Origin: Prochlorococcus sp. MIT 0603
GTDB taxonomy: Bacteria; Cyanobacteriota; Cyanobacteriia; PCC-6307; Cyanobiaceae
NCBI RefSeq assembly: GCF_000760215.1
Contig: NZ_JNAW01000002.1
Location: 280,300-344,299 of the forward strand
Direction: 5' to 3'
DNA: 64,000 bases
Notes under the pieces: model-generated
What the model saw: only the letters and a program-made list of their open reading frames with translations
Databases searched by the model: none
Told to the model about the DNA's origin: nothing
Position numbers and translations under genes: made by a program
Shown here: piece after piece, positions 12,215 to 59,937 of the stretch
Layout of the letters: each line of letters opens with the position of its first letter
Numbering within the stretch: position 1 is the first letter of the stretch

Positions 12215-12490
12215 TTAATTACCATTAAAAATACATGACCACCTATTGTCTAATTGCCAGACAGGTTTATATATATCTTTAGTAATTTGTTTTCCAGCAT
12301 TCTCACATAATTCCAATGATTTCATAGGGATTGCATATAGCGACGGACTTGTTATTCCACTTACTTCTGGCCTGGAGCCTGGCCCTTGTCTATAGCTTCC
12401 TATAACTAGCCAATATGATTCTTGAGCTTTTATAGGACTACAAAATAAAGAAAGTGTTGTTGCTAAAAAAGCTAATTGAATTTTATTCAT
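12215..12490 (-). CDS. Small secreted protein of unknown function
   Basis: The 91-residue product has a signal peptide (MNKIQLAFLATTLSLFCSPIKAQ, cleavage likely after Ala22). The mature part is about 69 residues, with YWLVIGSYRQGPGSRPEV, LCENAGKQI and a final WQLDNRWSCIF. Two Cys in the mature part could form a disulfide. No domain is recognised with confidence. It is probably periplasmic. It diverges from uppP. Confidence 0.6.
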   Translation of the reverse strand: MNKIQLAFLATTLSLFCSPIKAQESYWLVIGSYRQGPGSRPEVSGITSPSLYAIPMKSLELCENAGKQITKDIYKPVWQLDNRWSCIFNGN

Positions 12491-53238: not shown

Positions 53239-54294
53239 ATGCAGACCTATGGTAATCCAGACGTCACCTACGGGTGGTGGGCTGGAAATTCTGGGGTCAC
53301 CAACCGCTCAGGGAAATTCATTGCAGCTCATGCCGCTCATACCGGTCTGATTGCTTTCTGGGCTGGTGCCTTCACTCTTTTTGAATTAGCTCGTTTTGAC
53401 CCTTCCTTGCCTATGGGTCATCAACCTTTAATAGCTCTCCCTCATTTAGCTACTCTTGGTATTGGCTTTGATGAGACTGGAACATTTGTAGGTGGAACAG
53501 CTGTTACATCAATAGCAATTGTTCATTTGATCCTTTCCATGGTTTATGGAGCTGGTGGACTATTGCACTCTCTCTTCTTTCCTGGAGATATGCAGGATTC
53601 CGAAGTAGCTCAGGCCCGTAAATTCAAGCTTGAGTGGGACAACCCAGATAATCAGACTTTCATTTTGGGACATCACCTTATCTTTTTAGGTGTTGCCAAC
53701 ATCCAGTTTGTTGAATGGGCAAGAATTCATGGAATATGGGATGCAGCAGCAGGCTCTATTCGTCAGGTTGAATACAATCTGAACCTTTCTCATATTTGGA
53801 ATCACCAATTTGATTTCCTTTCAATAAACAATTTGGAAGATGTTATGGGAGGGCATGCCTTCTTGGCATTCTTTATGATTACTGGTGGTGCTTTTCACAT
53901 AGCCACAAAACAAGTTGGTAAATATACCAAATTTAAAGGTTCCGGATTGCTTTCAGCAGAAGCTGTACTCTCATGGTCTCTTGCTGGTATTGGCTGGATG
54001 GCTATAGTTGCAGCTTTCTGGTGTGCAACAAATACAACAGTTTACCCAGTTGACTTCTTTGGGGAAGTCTTAGATCTTAAGTTTGGTATTTCCCCTTATT
54101 GGGTAGATACTGTAGACCTAGCAGATGGTGCTCACACATCCAGAGCATGGCTCACAAATGTCCATTACTATCTTGGATTCTTCTACATTCAAGGACACCT
54201 ATGGCATGCACTTCGTGCAATGGGCTTTGACTTCAAACGTGTAGCAGGTGCTGTTAGCAATGTAGGCACTGCAGCTGTTACTTTGAATGATTGA
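53239..54294 (+). CDS. pcb: Divinyl-chlorophyll a/b-binding light-harvesting protein
   Basis: Pcb proteins are the main antenna of Prochlorococcus. They are six-helix thylakoid proteins of the CP43/IsiA family, and surround photosystem II or I. The 351-residue product begins MQTYGNPDVTYGWWAGNSGV, which is the family's N-terminus. It has FIAAHAAHTGLIAFWAGAFT (chlorophyll-ligand His), FILGHHLIFLGVANIQFVEW, VMGGHAFLAFFMITGGAFHI and FYIQGHLWHALRAMGFD. The long lumenal loop of CP43 is absent, as expected. A strong terminator follows. Which numbered pcb paralogue this is cannot be decided here. Confidence 0.93.
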   Translation: MQTYGNPDVTYGWWAGNSGVTNRSGKFIAAHAAHTGLIAFWAGAFTLFELARFDPSLPMGHQPLIALPHLATLGIGFDETGTFVGGTAVTSIAIVHLILSMVYGAGGLLHSLFFPGDMQDSEVAQARKFKLEWDNPDNQTFILGHHLIFLGVANIQFVEWARIHGIWDAAAGSIRQVEYNLNLSHIWNHQFDFLSINNLEDVMGGHAFLAFFMITGGAFHIATKQVGKYTKFKGSGLLSAEAVLSWSLAGIGWMAIVAAFWCATNTTVYPVDFFGEVLDLKFGISPYWVDTVDLADGAHTSRAWLTNVHYYLGFFYIQGHLWHALRAMGFDFKRVAGAVSNVGTAAVTLND

Positions 54295-54458: not shown

Positions 54459-55844
54459 ATGGGGTTTAATCTTCTATTAGAAAATCAGTTTTTTTCTGAC
54501 TCTCTTATTTCTTTTACGATAGCGTTTGGCTCTCTTTTTATATTTACAGTACTTTTGATAGTAGGTAGAAGATTTGATTCAGCATTGAAACTAGAGAGAA
54601 TAGGAATTCCTATCTCCATATTATTTGGAACATTTGCACTTTTAATAGGACCTCATGGACCTACTCCTTTATTGCCAGAAAGAATTACAGATGTTTGGGT
54701 GAAGCTCCCTACGCCTTTGCTTGCATTGGTCTTCGCAACCTTAATGTTAGGAAGACCCCTCCCTAGAGGGAAGGGATTGTGGAATCCAGTTGCTTCACAA
54801 GCTTTATTAGGACTTTTATTAGGTTTCGGACAATATTTAATAGGAGGAATGGCCTTATTGTTTTTCCTTATACCTTATTTAGACGTTGATCCTTTAATGG
54901 GCTGTTTAATTGAGGTTGGATTTGAAGGAGGTCATGGCGCCGCTTTTGTAATGGGTGAGACCTTTGAGAAATTTGGATTTCACCAAGGCCTTGATTTGGG
55001 CTTAGCGATGGCAACTGTTGGACTTTTGGCTTCGACTTTATTAGGGAGTGGATTGATTGTTATAGGTAGATCTTTGGGTTGGACAACATTTAATGAACTT
55101 AATTCTGAAAGTGACCTTTCATTAGAAGTAAAAGAGACATTTGGGCAACAAATAAGGCAGTTAATAATTAACCTTGGCTTTGCTGGATTGGCTATTCTTT
55201 TTGGATTGAGCATGCTTCTTCTCCTGAAATTCTTTAGCGGGTCTATAGGAGGGATTTTTGCAGAAGTATTCTCTGTATTCCCTGTTTTCCCTTTGGCTTT
55301 ATTGGGATCACTCTTAATAAGATTTATTTTAGAGAAGCTTGATAAAGCCAAATTTGTATCTGAAATATTGCAAAGAGAAATTGGGGTCCTTTCTACTGAC
55401 CTTCTTATTACAACAGCAATGGCAGGCCTTGACTTGCCTCTGTTGTTAAAGGATTGGATCCCTTTATTAGTCTTGGCTTTAAGTGGATTGCTTTGGAATA
55501 TTTTCGGTATGTTTGTATTTTCAAAAGTCTTATTTAATCAGAAATGGTTTGAGAGATCAATAATTGAATTTGGAAATGCAACAGGCGTTGCAGCAAGCGG
55601 TATTTTACTTCTTCGTCTTGCTGACCCTAGAGATAAGACTAATACGCTTCCAATATTCTCTATCAAACAGCTATTTCTTCAGCCTTTACTGTCAGGAGGA
55701 TTGATAACGGTTTTAGCACCTTTGGCAATCATCAAATTTGGCTTAATAGGATGGACAGAAGTTTGTGGGATCCTTACGATATCACTGATTGTCTTGGCAT
55801 TATCACTACAAAATGGAATAGATAAAAGAGAATTTAAAAACTAA
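54459..55844 (+). CDS. Sodium/glutamate symporter-like protein (GltS family)
   Basis: The 461-residue product is a multi-helix protein. It has FGTFALLIGPHGPTPLLPE, FATLMLGRPLPRG, GFEGGHGAAFVMGETFE and GLDLGLAMATVGLLASTLLG. It also has the second half-repeat region FGNATGVAASGILLLRLAD. This duplicated inverted layout is that of the ESS (GltS) family, which uses Na+ to take up glutamate in the inner membrane. Substrate by family only. Uptake of amino acids is known in marine picocyanobacteria. It follows pcb in the same direction but beyond a terminator. Confidence 0.82.
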   Translation: MGFNLLLENQFFSDSLISFTIAFGSLFIFTVLLIVGRRFDSALKLERIGIPISILFGTFALLIGPHGPTPLLPERITDVWVKLPTPLLALVFATLMLGRPLPRGKGLWNPVASQALLGLLLGFGQYLIGGMALLFFLIPYLDVDPLMGCLIEVGFEGGHGAAFVMGETFEKFGFHQGLDLGLAMATVGLLASTLLGSGLIVIGRSLGWTTFNELNSESDLSLEVKETFGQQIRQLIINLGFAGLAILFGLSMLLLLKFFSGSIGGIFAEVFSVFPVFPLALLGSLLIRFILEKLDKAKFVSEILQREIGVLSTDLLITTAMAGLDLPLLLKDWIPLLVLALSGLLWNIFGMFVFSKVLFNQKWFERSIIEFGNATGVAASGILLLRLADPRDKTNTLPIFSIKQLFLQPLLSGGLITVLAPLAIIKFGLIGWTEVCGILTISLIVLALSLQNGIDKREFKN

Positions 55845-56166: not shown

Positions 56167-56868
56167 TTAATTGTTGATAGGATTTTGTCTGGTTAGAACA
56201 TCTGGGAAGAAGATTGGCTGATCATGCTTCGTCCAGAAAATATTTTTTTTCATTAAAATTGAGAATAGATCATGATTTAAATAATAATTCAACCAATCTT
56301 TTAGAAATGATAAATCGTTATTACAGTCAAAACTTCTTGGGTCTATTGATCGGTATTGCCTAACAAAAGGCCATATGGCCCAATCCGCAACACTTTCTTT
56401 ATTCCCTATTAGCCAAGGCCTCTTGGATCTGTTGGGAAAACAACTTAGCTTATCATTCCACTTCTTAAGAATAATGTTTAGCTTAAGATGATGTTCATTT
56501 ACATTTATATTGTTGTATCTACTAGGATATTTATATCTATCTAAATGATATTTAAAAGAATTATCATTCTCATTAATTATCTTCTCAATAGAGCTATCTT
56601 TAAGATTAAAATTGAAATCTGGGTTTAGCATTTGATTGCAATTTTTAATTGCCCATTGAATAATATTTAAACTTTCATCAATCACCTTACCTTCTTTTGT
56701 TATTAGCACTGGCACAGTGGATTTTTTTGAGACCATAGTTAGTTCCTGAGGTTTATCTTTAAGACTTACTTCCCTTAGAATTACTTGCTTGCCACAATTT
56801 AATATTGCCCATCTTGCTCTAATTGCATATGGACATCTTCTGAATGAATATAAAGTATCGATACTCAT
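56167..56868 (-). CDS. Glutathione S-transferase-like protein
   Basis: The 233-residue product has a thioredoxin-fold N-terminal domain: LYSFRRCPYAIRARWAILNC (with CPYA, a Cys where GST-omega and glutaredoxin-like types have one), VSKKSTVPVLITKEG (cis-Pro) and VIDESLNIIQWAI. A helical C-terminal domain follows, with ESVADWAIWPFVRQYR. The Cys suggests a thiol-transferase or a Cys-type GST. The substrate is unknown. It converges with the small charged protein gene. Confidence 0.8.
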   Translation of the reverse strand: MSIDTLYSFRRCPYAIRARWAILNCGKQVILREVSLKDKPQELTMVSKKSTVPVLITKEGKVIDESLNIIQWAIKNCNQMLNPDFNFNLKDSSIEKIINENDNSFKYHLDRYKYPSRYNNINVNEHHLKLNIILKKWNDKLSCFPNRSKRPWLIGNKESVADWAIWPFVRQYRSIDPRSFDCNNDLSFLKDWLNYYLNHDLFSILMKKNIFWTKHDQPIFFPDVLTRQNPINN

Positions 56869-57023: not shown

Positions 57024-57572
57024 ATGTCGGGACATGTTTTCTTAATCAGGAAAGGGAGCTTCTTTATGATTGGCAAGTGTGGAGATGTTACAAGACAAAT
57101 GAAGAAATTACGACCAGATGAAGTTTTATCCACTCTTGAAATCGAAGAACCAGAGGCTTTTGAGGCTAGGCTTTTGAGAAGGTACCAAAATGTCAGGCTG
57201 CCAGAATCCGGATATTTTCAGTTATCCGAAAAACAGCTTAAGGATTGCAAAAGACAGTTTGGAGTTAAAAGCAAAATACCAAAAAGGTTGAGTGAGGAAT
57301 TTTCTATAGCTTTTACTTGCTCAGTTCTCTTTTTTATCCTTGCTGGAGCTTTATTTTTAAAGACAACTCTTTCTCCTAGCCTAGAGCTTGCTTTCGCGTT
57401 TGCGTTTTCTGCACTCCCAATGTGGCTTTTATTCTTCCTTGGTAACTTTGGGGGTTACTATGTCGGCGATCTGAAACTGTTTTCTTCTTGGCTAAATAGA
57501 TTAAGAGCTCTAAGCTTGGCTTTGATTTTGTCAGCATTATCTTATTTGTTATTTATCAAGACAATTATCTGA
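57024..57572 (+). CDS. GIY-YIG/T5orf172-like domain with membrane helices (paralogue 2)
   Basis: The 182-residue product starts HVFLIRKGSFFMIGKCGD, with FLI and MIG in the places of GIY and YIG. It continues to LLRRYQNVRLPESGYFQL. It then has about four hydrophobic segments (about residues 93-182). It is the longer relative of the 11532-11912 protein, with the same head and more helices. The Arg after IG may be present in DVTRQMKKL. Whether it cuts nucleic acid is unknown; the membrane location is unusual for such domains. Confidence 0.6.
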   Translation: MSGHVFLIRKGSFFMIGKCGDVTRQMKKLRPDEVLSTLEIEEPEAFEARLLRRYQNVRLPESGYFQLSEKQLKDCKRQFGVKSKIPKRLSEEFSIAFTCSVLFFILAGALFLKTTLSPSLELAFAFAFSALPMWLLFFLGNFGGYYVGDLKLFSSWLNRLRALSLALILSALSYLLFIKTII

Positions 57573-57941: not shown

Positions 57942-58661
57942 TTAAATCTCAAGATTGCAGTTGACCGAAATCTCGAAAGGAATACAGGTATTGGGAAGTT
58001 CCAAAATTCGAGAAACAATTAAACCTATATCATCTGGTTGAGTCATTTGTTTCTTCTCTATGCTTTTTACATTTCTCGCCATTTTAGTATTCACCCATCC
58101 TGGACATATTGTAGTGACTCTAATCCCATCACCCCATCCTTCATTCCTTATTGTTTGAGATAGCCCCATCAATGCAAACTTTGAGGCTGTATAACCAGCA
58201 AGCTTTCCTTTTGATCTTTTTCCACTCATTGATATAAGGATTATTATTCTTGAATTATTGTTTTGTTTTAAATATTTCCATGATTCTCTTGTGAGGATCC
58301 ATGGACCCATTAAGTTAACCCTCCATAGATCCTCAATTTCTTTCTCTCTATTGTCTTCATAATTTAATCCAACATTACTAAATATTCCTGCACAGTGGAT
58401 TAAGGTATCTATTTTATTAAAGATAGTTTTTGTGTTATTTACAAATGAAATAGCACTTTTTTGGTCTTTGGCATCATACTTATTTACTATAATCTTTTTA
58501 TCTTTGTTAAAATTAGGATCTAGAATTGAACCTTTGATATCTTCAGGATTCCTTATACCAATACTTATATTATGCCCATCTTCTAATGCTTTTTCGGCAA
58601 TACTTCTTCCAATGCCTCTAGAAGCTCCAGTAATTATTATATTTCTTAAATTTTCAGACAC
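57942..58661 (-). CDS. Short-chain dehydrogenase/reductase
   Basis: The 239-residue product has the Rossmann motif IITGASRGIGRSIAE, an NAG-type motif replaced by CAGIF (LIHCAGIFSN), the catalytic Ser region IIILISMSGK and the YTASK motif (GYTASKFALMGLSQ). A PGWVNTKMA stretch follows. It is a classical NADP(H)-type SDR. Its start overlaps the lycopene cyclase end by eight bases, so it is translated with it. A role in carotenoid or lipid metabolism is possible but not shown. Confidence 0.88.
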   Translation of the reverse strand: MSENLRNIIITGASRGIGRSIAEKALEDGHNISIGIRNPEDIKGSILDPNFNKDKKIIVNKYDAKDQKSAISFVNNTKTIFNKIDTLIHCAGIFSNVGLNYEDNREKEIEDLWRVNLMGPWILTRESWKYLKQNNNSRIIILISMSGKRSKGKLAGYTASKFALMGLSQTIRNEGWGDGIRVTTICPGWVNTKMARNVKSIEKKQMTQPDDIGLIVSRILELPNTCIPFEISVNCNLEI

Positions 58662-59937
58662 TTGGTTTTAGGAATTTCCATAATAGTTTTATTTCCCGCC
58701 CTTTCATTTCAATTAGTCCCCATTTAACATTTATAGGTGCTTTTTTGAACATTATCCACATAGCTCTGACAAGTTCTTTTAGTGTTAATGTATTAGTCAA
58801 GAACCTATACCATTGATTATTAGATAAACCAAAGAAACTTTTAAAGAAATATCTTAATTGGCTTTCTTTAAATCTCATTAACTTTTCCAACCCAAATTGA
58901 TATAATGCTTGTTTTCTTCTTAGTTCTCTAGGCCAAAGTGATTGCCAACCTTTACGTGCTATTTCATGCGGAGTATTTGTATCGTTTTTGATTTCTTTAG
59001 CTAATACTTTGGCTAAGGAAGGTGCTCTTCTAAGTAGTCCACCAACTAGATATCCAGAAGCCGGATGAACCATCCCTGCAGAACCTCCAAAACCTAATAT
59101 TGCTTGATTTAAATTTGGTATTGGTATATTCATTGGTAGAAATACACCATGCTCTTCATGATCTATTTTTGTGATCTCTATATTCCTCTTCTTAAGTCTT
59201 AATTTCAGCCTTGCTTTAAGGGTTTCTAATTCTACTGGAGGAGCAAGCCCTAGAGATGTTTCTTCAAGAAAATATTTTCCATTCCCCATATCCATTGCAT
59301 ATAAGAATGTTGGAGGTTCTTTTTTTTCAATCTGACTTAGATGATTGCTTCTATAATCCATTAAGACGAATTGATCTTTCTCTACTGGCGGTTCACTGAA
59401 TTCACCTACTATTCCATAACATGTTTGTACTGCTATGTCACCATTGTTTGGAATATCAATAAATACAGGGTTGTAGCCTGTTGCGTCTATAATTAGCCTT
59501 GCTACCAATTCCTCTTCCTGTGTTGTTATAACAGTACTATTTATAGAATTAATCTTGAAATCATAAGCTTTACCTCTATACCATTCGACAGAAGCTTCCT
59601 TGCACTGATTTAACCAGTGTTCTTGCAGCTTTTTTTTATCAAACAGTCCGTAATCACGATTATGATTAGTTGCAAGATTGAGAGGGGAGTTTTCATCTGT
59701 TGAGCCTTCGCCTAAATAGCTGACTGTATTAGACCATCGATGCTTTAGTAATTTTTCAAAACCTAGTTCGTCAACCTCTTCTCCCCAGATGCCATAAGTA
59801 TAGGGCCATGGTTCTGATGGCTCATTTAAAGAGAGCACTCCTACGTGAAGCTTTTCTTGCCCAAGTGCTGCGGCAATTGATAGGGCACCAGGCCCAGCTC
59901 CAATTACCAATACATCTAAAGGTTCTTTGCTAATCAT
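58654..59937 (-). CDS. Lycopene cyclase
   Basis: The 427-residue product is a flavoprotein cyclase of the CrtL type: DVLVIGAGPGALSIAAALGQ (dinucleotide fold), PYTYGIWGEEVDELG, a YGLFDKKKLQEHW and IIDATGYNPV stretch. It also has FVLMDYRSNHL, PTFLYAMDMG, FLEETSL and FGGSAGMVHPASGYLVG. Lycopene cyclases form the rings of beta- and epsilon-carotenes, leading to zeaxanthin and alpha-carotene in Prochlorococcus. Prochlorococcus has two paralogues (crtL-b, crtL-e); I cannot say which this is from sequence alone. The SDR gene downstream overlaps it. Confidence 0.9.
   Translation of the reverse strand: MISKEPLDVLVIGAGPGALSIAAALGQEKLHVGVLSLNEPSEPWPYTYGIWGEEVDELGFEKLLKHRWSNTVSYLGEGSTDENSPLNLATNHNRDYGLFDKKKLQEHWLNQCKEASVEWYRGKAYDFKINSINSTVITTQEEELVARLIIDATGYNPVFIDIPNNGDIAVQTCYGIVGEFSEPPVEKDQFVLMDYRSNHLSQIEKKEPPTFLYAMDMGNGKYFLEETSLGLAPPVELETLKARLKLRLKKRNIEITKIDHEEHGVFLPMNIPIPNLNQAILGFGGSAGMVHPASGYLVGGLLRRAPSLAKVLAKEIKNDTNTPHEIARKGWQSLWPRELRRKQALYQFGLEKLMRFKESQLRYFFKSFFGLSNNQWYRFLTNTLTLKELVRAMWIMFKKAPINVKWGLIEMKGREIKLLWKFLKPSV

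Follow-up and report, generated by a model that had tools for sequence, protein, structure and literature searches.

A lineage-restricted, membrane-anchored GIY-YIG-like protein of Prochlorococcus that has probably lost its nuclease activity

The P2 gene of Prochlorococcus sp. MIT 0603 encodes a 182-residue protein that, judging from sequence comparisons and structural models, is probably a membrane-tethered pseudonuclease: a noncutting, basic binding module carried on a three-helix membrane domain. The gene lies at positions 57024 to 57572 (plus strand) of the 64,000-nucleotide stretch of DNA analyzed here (the window). It is supported by an open reading frame with an ATG start, by full-length relatives, and by an AlphaFold2 model. 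In the mechanism that we propose, the N-terminal head would face the cytoplasm, as suggested by the odd number of helices and the basic character of the head. The head would no longer cut; its positive charge would instead let it bind nucleic acid or else a protein or lipid partner. The tail would be the anchor, and its conserved FGGY...D...R stretch may form the second half of a functional site or a contact with a membrane partner. The paralog P1, also in the window, would be a second degenerate member in a clade of its own. The head family was already known, and P2 is a real, conserved, and lineage-restricted family with a clear structural reading.

The AlphaFold2 model of P2, computed with 12 orthologs, has a pLDDT of 89.9 and a pTM of 0.74. 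The GIY-YIG/MUG113-type head (aa 1 to 80; 57024 to 57263, plus strand) was delimited by Pfam, a model of the head, PDB fold matches, and residue tables. Its core contains strands at residues 3 to 10 and 13 to 19, a helix at 22 to 29, a strand at 33 to 40, and a helix at 43 to 53. Beyond the core, the model has helices at residues 69 to 78, 89 to 112, 118 to 129 with 131 to 139, and 152 to 181. The tail helices, all on the plus strand, were defined by the model and by hydropathy. Membrane helix 1 spans aa 89 to 112 (57288 to 57359), and membrane helix 2 spans aa 118 to 139 (57375 to 57440) and is broken at residue 130. Helix 3, at aa 152 to 181 (57477 to 57566), is mainly membrane. The hydropathy peaks fall at residues 94 to 112, 122 to 140, and 160 to 178.

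The most conserved stretch of P2, as seen in conservation counts, is G140-x-FGGY(142-145)-x3-D149-L-x2-F153-x4-N158-R159 (57441 to 57500, plus strand). G140, FGGY, D149, and R159 are present in all 26 distinct sequences among the 34 P2 entries counted, F153 is present in 25, and N158 is present in 24. Four head residues, R49, L50, R58, and Y64, are likewise found in 26 of 26. Residues 141 to 150 are the least confident part of the model (mean pLDDT, 69). If the head is cytoplasmic, a three-helix topology should place the FGGY...D...R stretch, which lies between helices 2 and 3, on the side of the head.

The three-helix membrane domain of P2 most likely has no recognized relative. When we compared the tail (aa 81 to 182) with Pfam, each match appeared in only 1 of 10 members, with an E value of 0.011 or worse, and a search of PDB sequences gave a single match at an E value of 0.84. 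Sequence profiles of the head and of the tail found nothing useful among PDB chains. A Foldseek search with the whole P2 model returned no match at an E value of ≤0.001. VIA-align of the whole model gave helical-bundle rows across the tail with Z scores of ≤8.1, which may reflect just a common arrangement. Because these whole-model comparisons were uninformative, we modeled the head by itself.

The isolated head was modeled with a pLDDT of 95.1 and has the order strand-strand-helix-strand-helix. Foldseek found no PDB match for it at an E value of ≤0.001; UPF0213 protein BH0048 ranked first (E = 0.076, probability 0.90), an unrelated ATPase second, the UvrC GIY-YIG domain third, and Slx1 twelfth. 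With VIA-align, rows 1 to 7 were UPF0213, Slx1, and UvrC structures (Z scores of 4.8 to 3.9), followed by ribosomal proteins at a Z score of about 3. At the sequence level, the head passed the Pfam gathering cutoffs of MUG113 (PF13455; 28.9 bits versus 22.3) and T5orf172 (PF10544; 20.8 bits versus 20), and MUG113 was matched by 12 of 12 aligned P2 orthologs at an E value of ≤0.01. The P1 head passed MUG113 alone (22.8 bits versus 22.3). Six-frame Pfam searches of the host genome returned P3 and P1, or P3 only, and never P2. The match of P2 to the generic model is therefore weak. In NCBIfam, neither P2 nor P1 had a match at an E value of ≤10. Profile and fold agree, with modest structure scores, and together they support placing the P2 head in the MUG113 branch of the GIY-YIG superfamily. 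The preliminary description of this DNA had called the shared head GIY-YIG-like, and that view holds. It had also considered that the shared motif might occur in unrelated cytoplasmic proteins with no fold match. Similar heads do occur in proteins without a membrane segment (meaning no hydropathy peak above 1.6), both in the family and in the wider phylum, where 12 heads of loci L203 to L231 were aligned to the head profile and counted. Because a fold match exists, that objection does not apply.

The host genome encodes two relatives of P2. A six-frame search of its 1,752,482 bases (7 contigs) with P2 as the query found P2 itself, P1 (E = 3.1e-9), and P3 (E = 4.7e-19), so the resemblance goes beyond chance. 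P1 (11532 to 11912, plus strand) is a 126-residue protein with a P2-like head and one membrane segment, as defined by its open reading frame, Pfam, BLASTP, hydropathy, and clade. BLASTP aligned P2 and P1 without gaps over residues 1 to 76, with 25/76 identities and 45/76 positives. The common motifs reported earlier are all present, namely, VFLIRKG in P2 and VYLIRNG in P1, the IG pair, RYQNVRLPESGYFQL and RYSEVRLPETNYFKL, and QLKDC and QLLEC. The membrane parts were also said to differ in helix number, and the hydropathy profiles agree, with three segments in P2, one in P1 (a single peak at residues 95 to 113), and two in P3. P1 has a conserved location of its own: in 4 of 6 P1 loci examined, it is flanked on one side by a kinase-like gene and on the other by the small gene at 12215 with a uppP-like gene; the names of P1 neighbors are our reading of the sequence, except for DUF1830, which comes from Pfam.

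The P3 head match lies about 13 kb outside the window (G000:C2:267084-267338). P3 itself is a 167-residue protein (L053:6752-7255, minus strand) with two membrane segments and intact Arg and Glu, and it may still be a nuclease. Unlike P1 and P2, it matches the candidate defense family PDC-S57 (E = 9.2e-9, PADLOC) and several phage PHROG families. The flanks of P3 are common to two genomes of the same genus (L053 and L189) and are hardly or not at all shared with the G056 copies (L186 and L188). At least three membrane-tailed groups bear such heads. In addition, locus L184 (G396:C1:107000-120000), from genus g17, has two more MUG113-type heads about 1 kb apart, both with Arg and Glu intact and no hydropathy peak.

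We then compared the catalytic positions in 142 distinct heads taken from the retrieved loci, comprising 107 P2, 9 P1, and 26 other heads. The positions that we take to be the GIY-Tyr, YIG-Tyr, Arg, Glu, and His were assigned by family-wide conservation together with general features of GIY-YIG enzymes, and not by residue-by-residue superposition. Arg at position 25 occurs in 0 of 107 P2 heads and 1 of 9 P1 heads, versus 25 of 26 other heads. His at position 51 is absent from all 107 P2 heads and is present in 24 of the 26 others. Glu at position 47 is found in 98 of 107 P2 heads, in none of the 9 P1 heads, and in 25 of 26 other heads. The two Tyr positions hold Tyr in 104 and 100 of the 107 P2 heads. 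These P2 counts include 78 near-copies of one type (heads over 85% identical); in the more diverse set of 26 distinct P2 sequences, none has Arg25, and Glu47 is kept in 18 and lost in 8. Lys is the usual residue at the Arg position (80 of 107), and 6 of 107 P2 heads have an Arg one residue earlier, including the P2 of the window. That protein has Phe6 at the GIY-Tyr position, Phe14 at the YIG-Tyr position, and Gln25 at the Arg position, and it keeps Glu47. Phe14 is uninformative, because P3 and 3 of the 26 other heads also have Phe there. If locus L137, which we relabeled by hand from "other" to P1 owing to its tail, is counted as P1, Arg is present in 2 and Glu in none of the 10 P1 heads, and the 25 others have Arg in 24, Glu in 25, and His in 24.

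By these counts, catalytic residues have been lost from both P1 and P2, so neither should be presumed to be a nuclease. For P2, the case for lost activity rests chiefly on the Arg, because Glu47 and both Tyr residues are mostly retained, and some residual nuclease activity is possible. We considered whether P2 might still be an active membrane-bound nuclease, acting for example against incoming phage or transformed DNA, with the Lys or the neighboring Arg replacing the catalytic Arg. The retained Glu and Tyr residues and the frequent Lys would fit such an enzyme, as would the match of the intact paralog P3 to PDC-S57. However, neither Arg25 nor His51 occurs in any P2 head, Glu47 is lost in 8 of the 26 diverse sequences, and neither P2 nor P1 matches any PADLOC model at an E value of ≤1. 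Defense genes are usually found at variable genomic places, and P2, unlike them, has a fixed one. We regard an active nuclease as quite unlikely.

The P2 head appears to be under strong purifying selection. Over 1974 pairs the head had a median dN/dS of 0.046, and over 1639 pairs the tail had one of 0.142; only pairs with a dS of 0.2 to 1.2 were taken, out of the 5460 possible among 105 sequences, so that close relatives weigh heavily. This result bears on the idea that the head is a relic and that the membrane tail does the work. In favor of that idea, the most invariant run of the protein (FGGY, D149, and R159) sits in the tail, and the catalytic Arg is gone. However, the low dN/dS, lower in the head than in the tail, makes a relic head unlikely. 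Furthermore, 86 of 88 tail matches lie within open frames of 184 to 220 aa, which leaves room for a head, and the other two begin at contig ends. A relic head is thus a very improbable explanation. The mean net charge is +8.7 for P2 heads, +2.1 for P1 heads, and +3.6 for other heads. The positive charge of the P2 head would be compatible with a negatively charged partner, which it does not prove.

In a tree of the heads, P2 forms one clade (support 97/85). P1 also forms one clade (support 80/83), which depends on the hand label of L137. The tree used 59 of the 142 heads and 79 columns, after removal of near-copies and of any row with over 12 gaps, and it is too short to resolve much beyond the P1 and P2 clades.

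To describe the distribution of P2, we searched genomes of the family. Some P2 match was present in 168 of 400 genomes, several of them by the head only. A profile of the tail alone matched 88 of the 250 family genomes with ≥90% completeness, with one match in each, and these belong to 6 of 34 genera. Of 157 confirmed loci on GTDB contigs, 80 named ones were retained, and 78 of those 80 are titled Prochlorococcus and 2 uncultured Synechococcaceae. The proposal that Prochlorococcus has a lineage-specific family of membrane-anchored proteins therefore stands for the whole protein and for the tail, and it fails for the head alone. Among 60 genomes of genus g17 with ≥95% completeness, 57 have a full-length P2 match, including one that contains a TAA, and in one more genome a contig end cuts the match short. 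The remaining two have a P3-type head only (G344) or no match (G389). Neither matches the glutathione S-transferase (GST)-like gene that adjoins P2, so an assembly gap is possible. In strain MED4, the P2 ortholog is presumably PMM0631.

P1, P2, and P3 occur together in the host genome, and P2 could in principle act as a decoy for the intact P3 or regulate it, forming a pair of dead and live heads. However, when the head profile was run on 8 g17 genomes, 7 were matched, and 5 of these (G017, G067, G095, G117, and G364) carry P2 as the sole detected head, with no detectable P3. We regard a decoy role as highly unlikely. A phage origin of P2 was also rejected. We found no phage relative by tblastn in 50,697 phage records, no confirmed relative in an IMG/VR scan with P2 (which, as a search with a single protein, would detect only close relatives), and no PHROG match at an E value of ≤1.

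P2 sits in a conserved gene block. The preliminary description had advised looking at copy number and neighbors; the tail is single copy in the 88 genomes, and a GST-like gene (56167 to 56868, minus strand; Pfam and synteny), which is oriented divergently to P2, adjoins it in 19 of 19 P2 loci examined. In 14 of 19 P2 loci the full order is antenna-like, symporter-like, 85-aa, GST (reverse), P2, 83-aa, short-chain dehydrogenase (SDR; reverse), and lycopene cyclase (reverse). In the window, the antenna-like member is a PSII/CP43-like gene (53239 to 54294, plus strand; PF00421 and synteny) that we read as a putative Pcb antenna gene. The 83-aa small hydrophobic protein downstream of P2 (57671 to 57922, plus strand) was identified by synteny and has no Pfam match at an E value of ≤0.01. 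The SDR and lycopene cyclase genes (57942 to 59937, minus strand; synteny and Pfam) end the block. A 461-aa transporter-like protein within the conserved block (window positions 54459 to 55844) also lacks a Pfam match at an E value of ≤0.01. In L042 and L054, no 83-aa gene was detected near P2, and the P2 loci L036, L037, and L039 are rearranged or incomplete.

The antenna-like and lycopene cyclase genes share the P2 block in 16 of 19 loci. This arrangement raises the alternative that the head mediates protein-protein contacts in a membrane complex, perhaps one connected with photosynthetic pigments or antennae. The authors of a study of the animal protein ANKLE2 speculate that its nonenzymatic GIY-YIG-like domain aids scaffolding (PMC13179284), which would lend this alternative some plausibility. 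However, the block exists without P2 too. In G021, G058, and G085, which lack P2, GST, the 83-aa gene, SDR, and lycopene cyclase are in unchanged order, so linkage to pigment genes is weak evidence. We consider a pigment- or antenna-linked protein-protein module unlikely. In four other P2-lacking genomes that we examined, there was no such block around the GST match.

In G021, G058, and G085, the interval that separates GST from the 83-aa gene contains a metallo-beta-lactamase-like gene (our own reading) and, in two of them, a gene for a 163-aa membrane protein. Both genes are found in or at the P2 slot at L236:6754-8016, L239:5001-6243, and L048:3730-4964. Of the 19 P2 loci, two retain such genes: L048 carries P2 together with both, and L040 carries P2 with the 163-aa gene. 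The 163-aa gene also adjoins GST in L238. The metallo-beta-lactamase-like and 163-aa genes are apparently the older state of the locus. On the simplest reading, P2 was gained once between GST and the 163-aa gene, and the older genes were lost afterward. Derivation of the P2 tail from the 163-aa membrane protein was not supported (profile E value of 2).

A more specific version of the pseudonuclease model is that P2 is a nucleic acid tether, in which a noncutting DNA- or RNA-binding nuclease fold on a new three-helix domain was gained once in Prochlorococcus and kept. We offer this version tentatively, as possible though rather doubtful. Prochlorococcus is among the smallest phototrophs, and in it such a tether would hold the nucleoid or certain mRNAs at the membrane. 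Prochlorococcus genomes are streamlined, and a lineage-restricted gene that is strongly selected and nearly always present in one genus is therefore a good target for study. P2 offers a testable idea, namely, that a putatively catalytically dead nuclease domain has been retained at the membrane. For genes like P2, a nuclease label from a Pfam match alone may mislead. P3, with its residues intact, and P1 and P2, which have lost them, form a natural series in which to follow the repurposing of a nuclease fold.

We found no published study of the P2 protein among the open-licence papers searched. Antenna changes in Prochlorococcus are described in PMC11559063. In the examined text of a survey of the superfamily (PMC1564403), the words "transmembrane," "inactive," and "Prochlorococcus" do not occur. 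P2 differs from the MUG113 and T5orf172 families in its absent catalytic Arg and its fused three-helix membrane domain. A similar architecture is that of the P3-type membrane-tailed MUG113 proteins (e.g., L053, L155, L161, and L199), which have the same head followed by C-terminal membrane segments. Unlike P2, these heads keep Arg, Glu, and His, and the P2 tail profile, with its one match per genome, does not reach their tails. The N-terminal domain of UvrC, Slx1, and UPF0213 share the fold of the P2 head but have no membrane part, and UvrC and Slx1 are nucleases, unlike the proposed P2. PMC13179284 reports that ANKLE2 of animals is membrane anchored and has a nonenzymatic GIY-YIG-like domain that lacks the motifs. 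With its LEM and ankyrin architecture, this eukaryotic protein is unrelated to P2, yet it offers an analogy for a membrane anchor combined with a nonenzymatic GIY-YIG-like domain.
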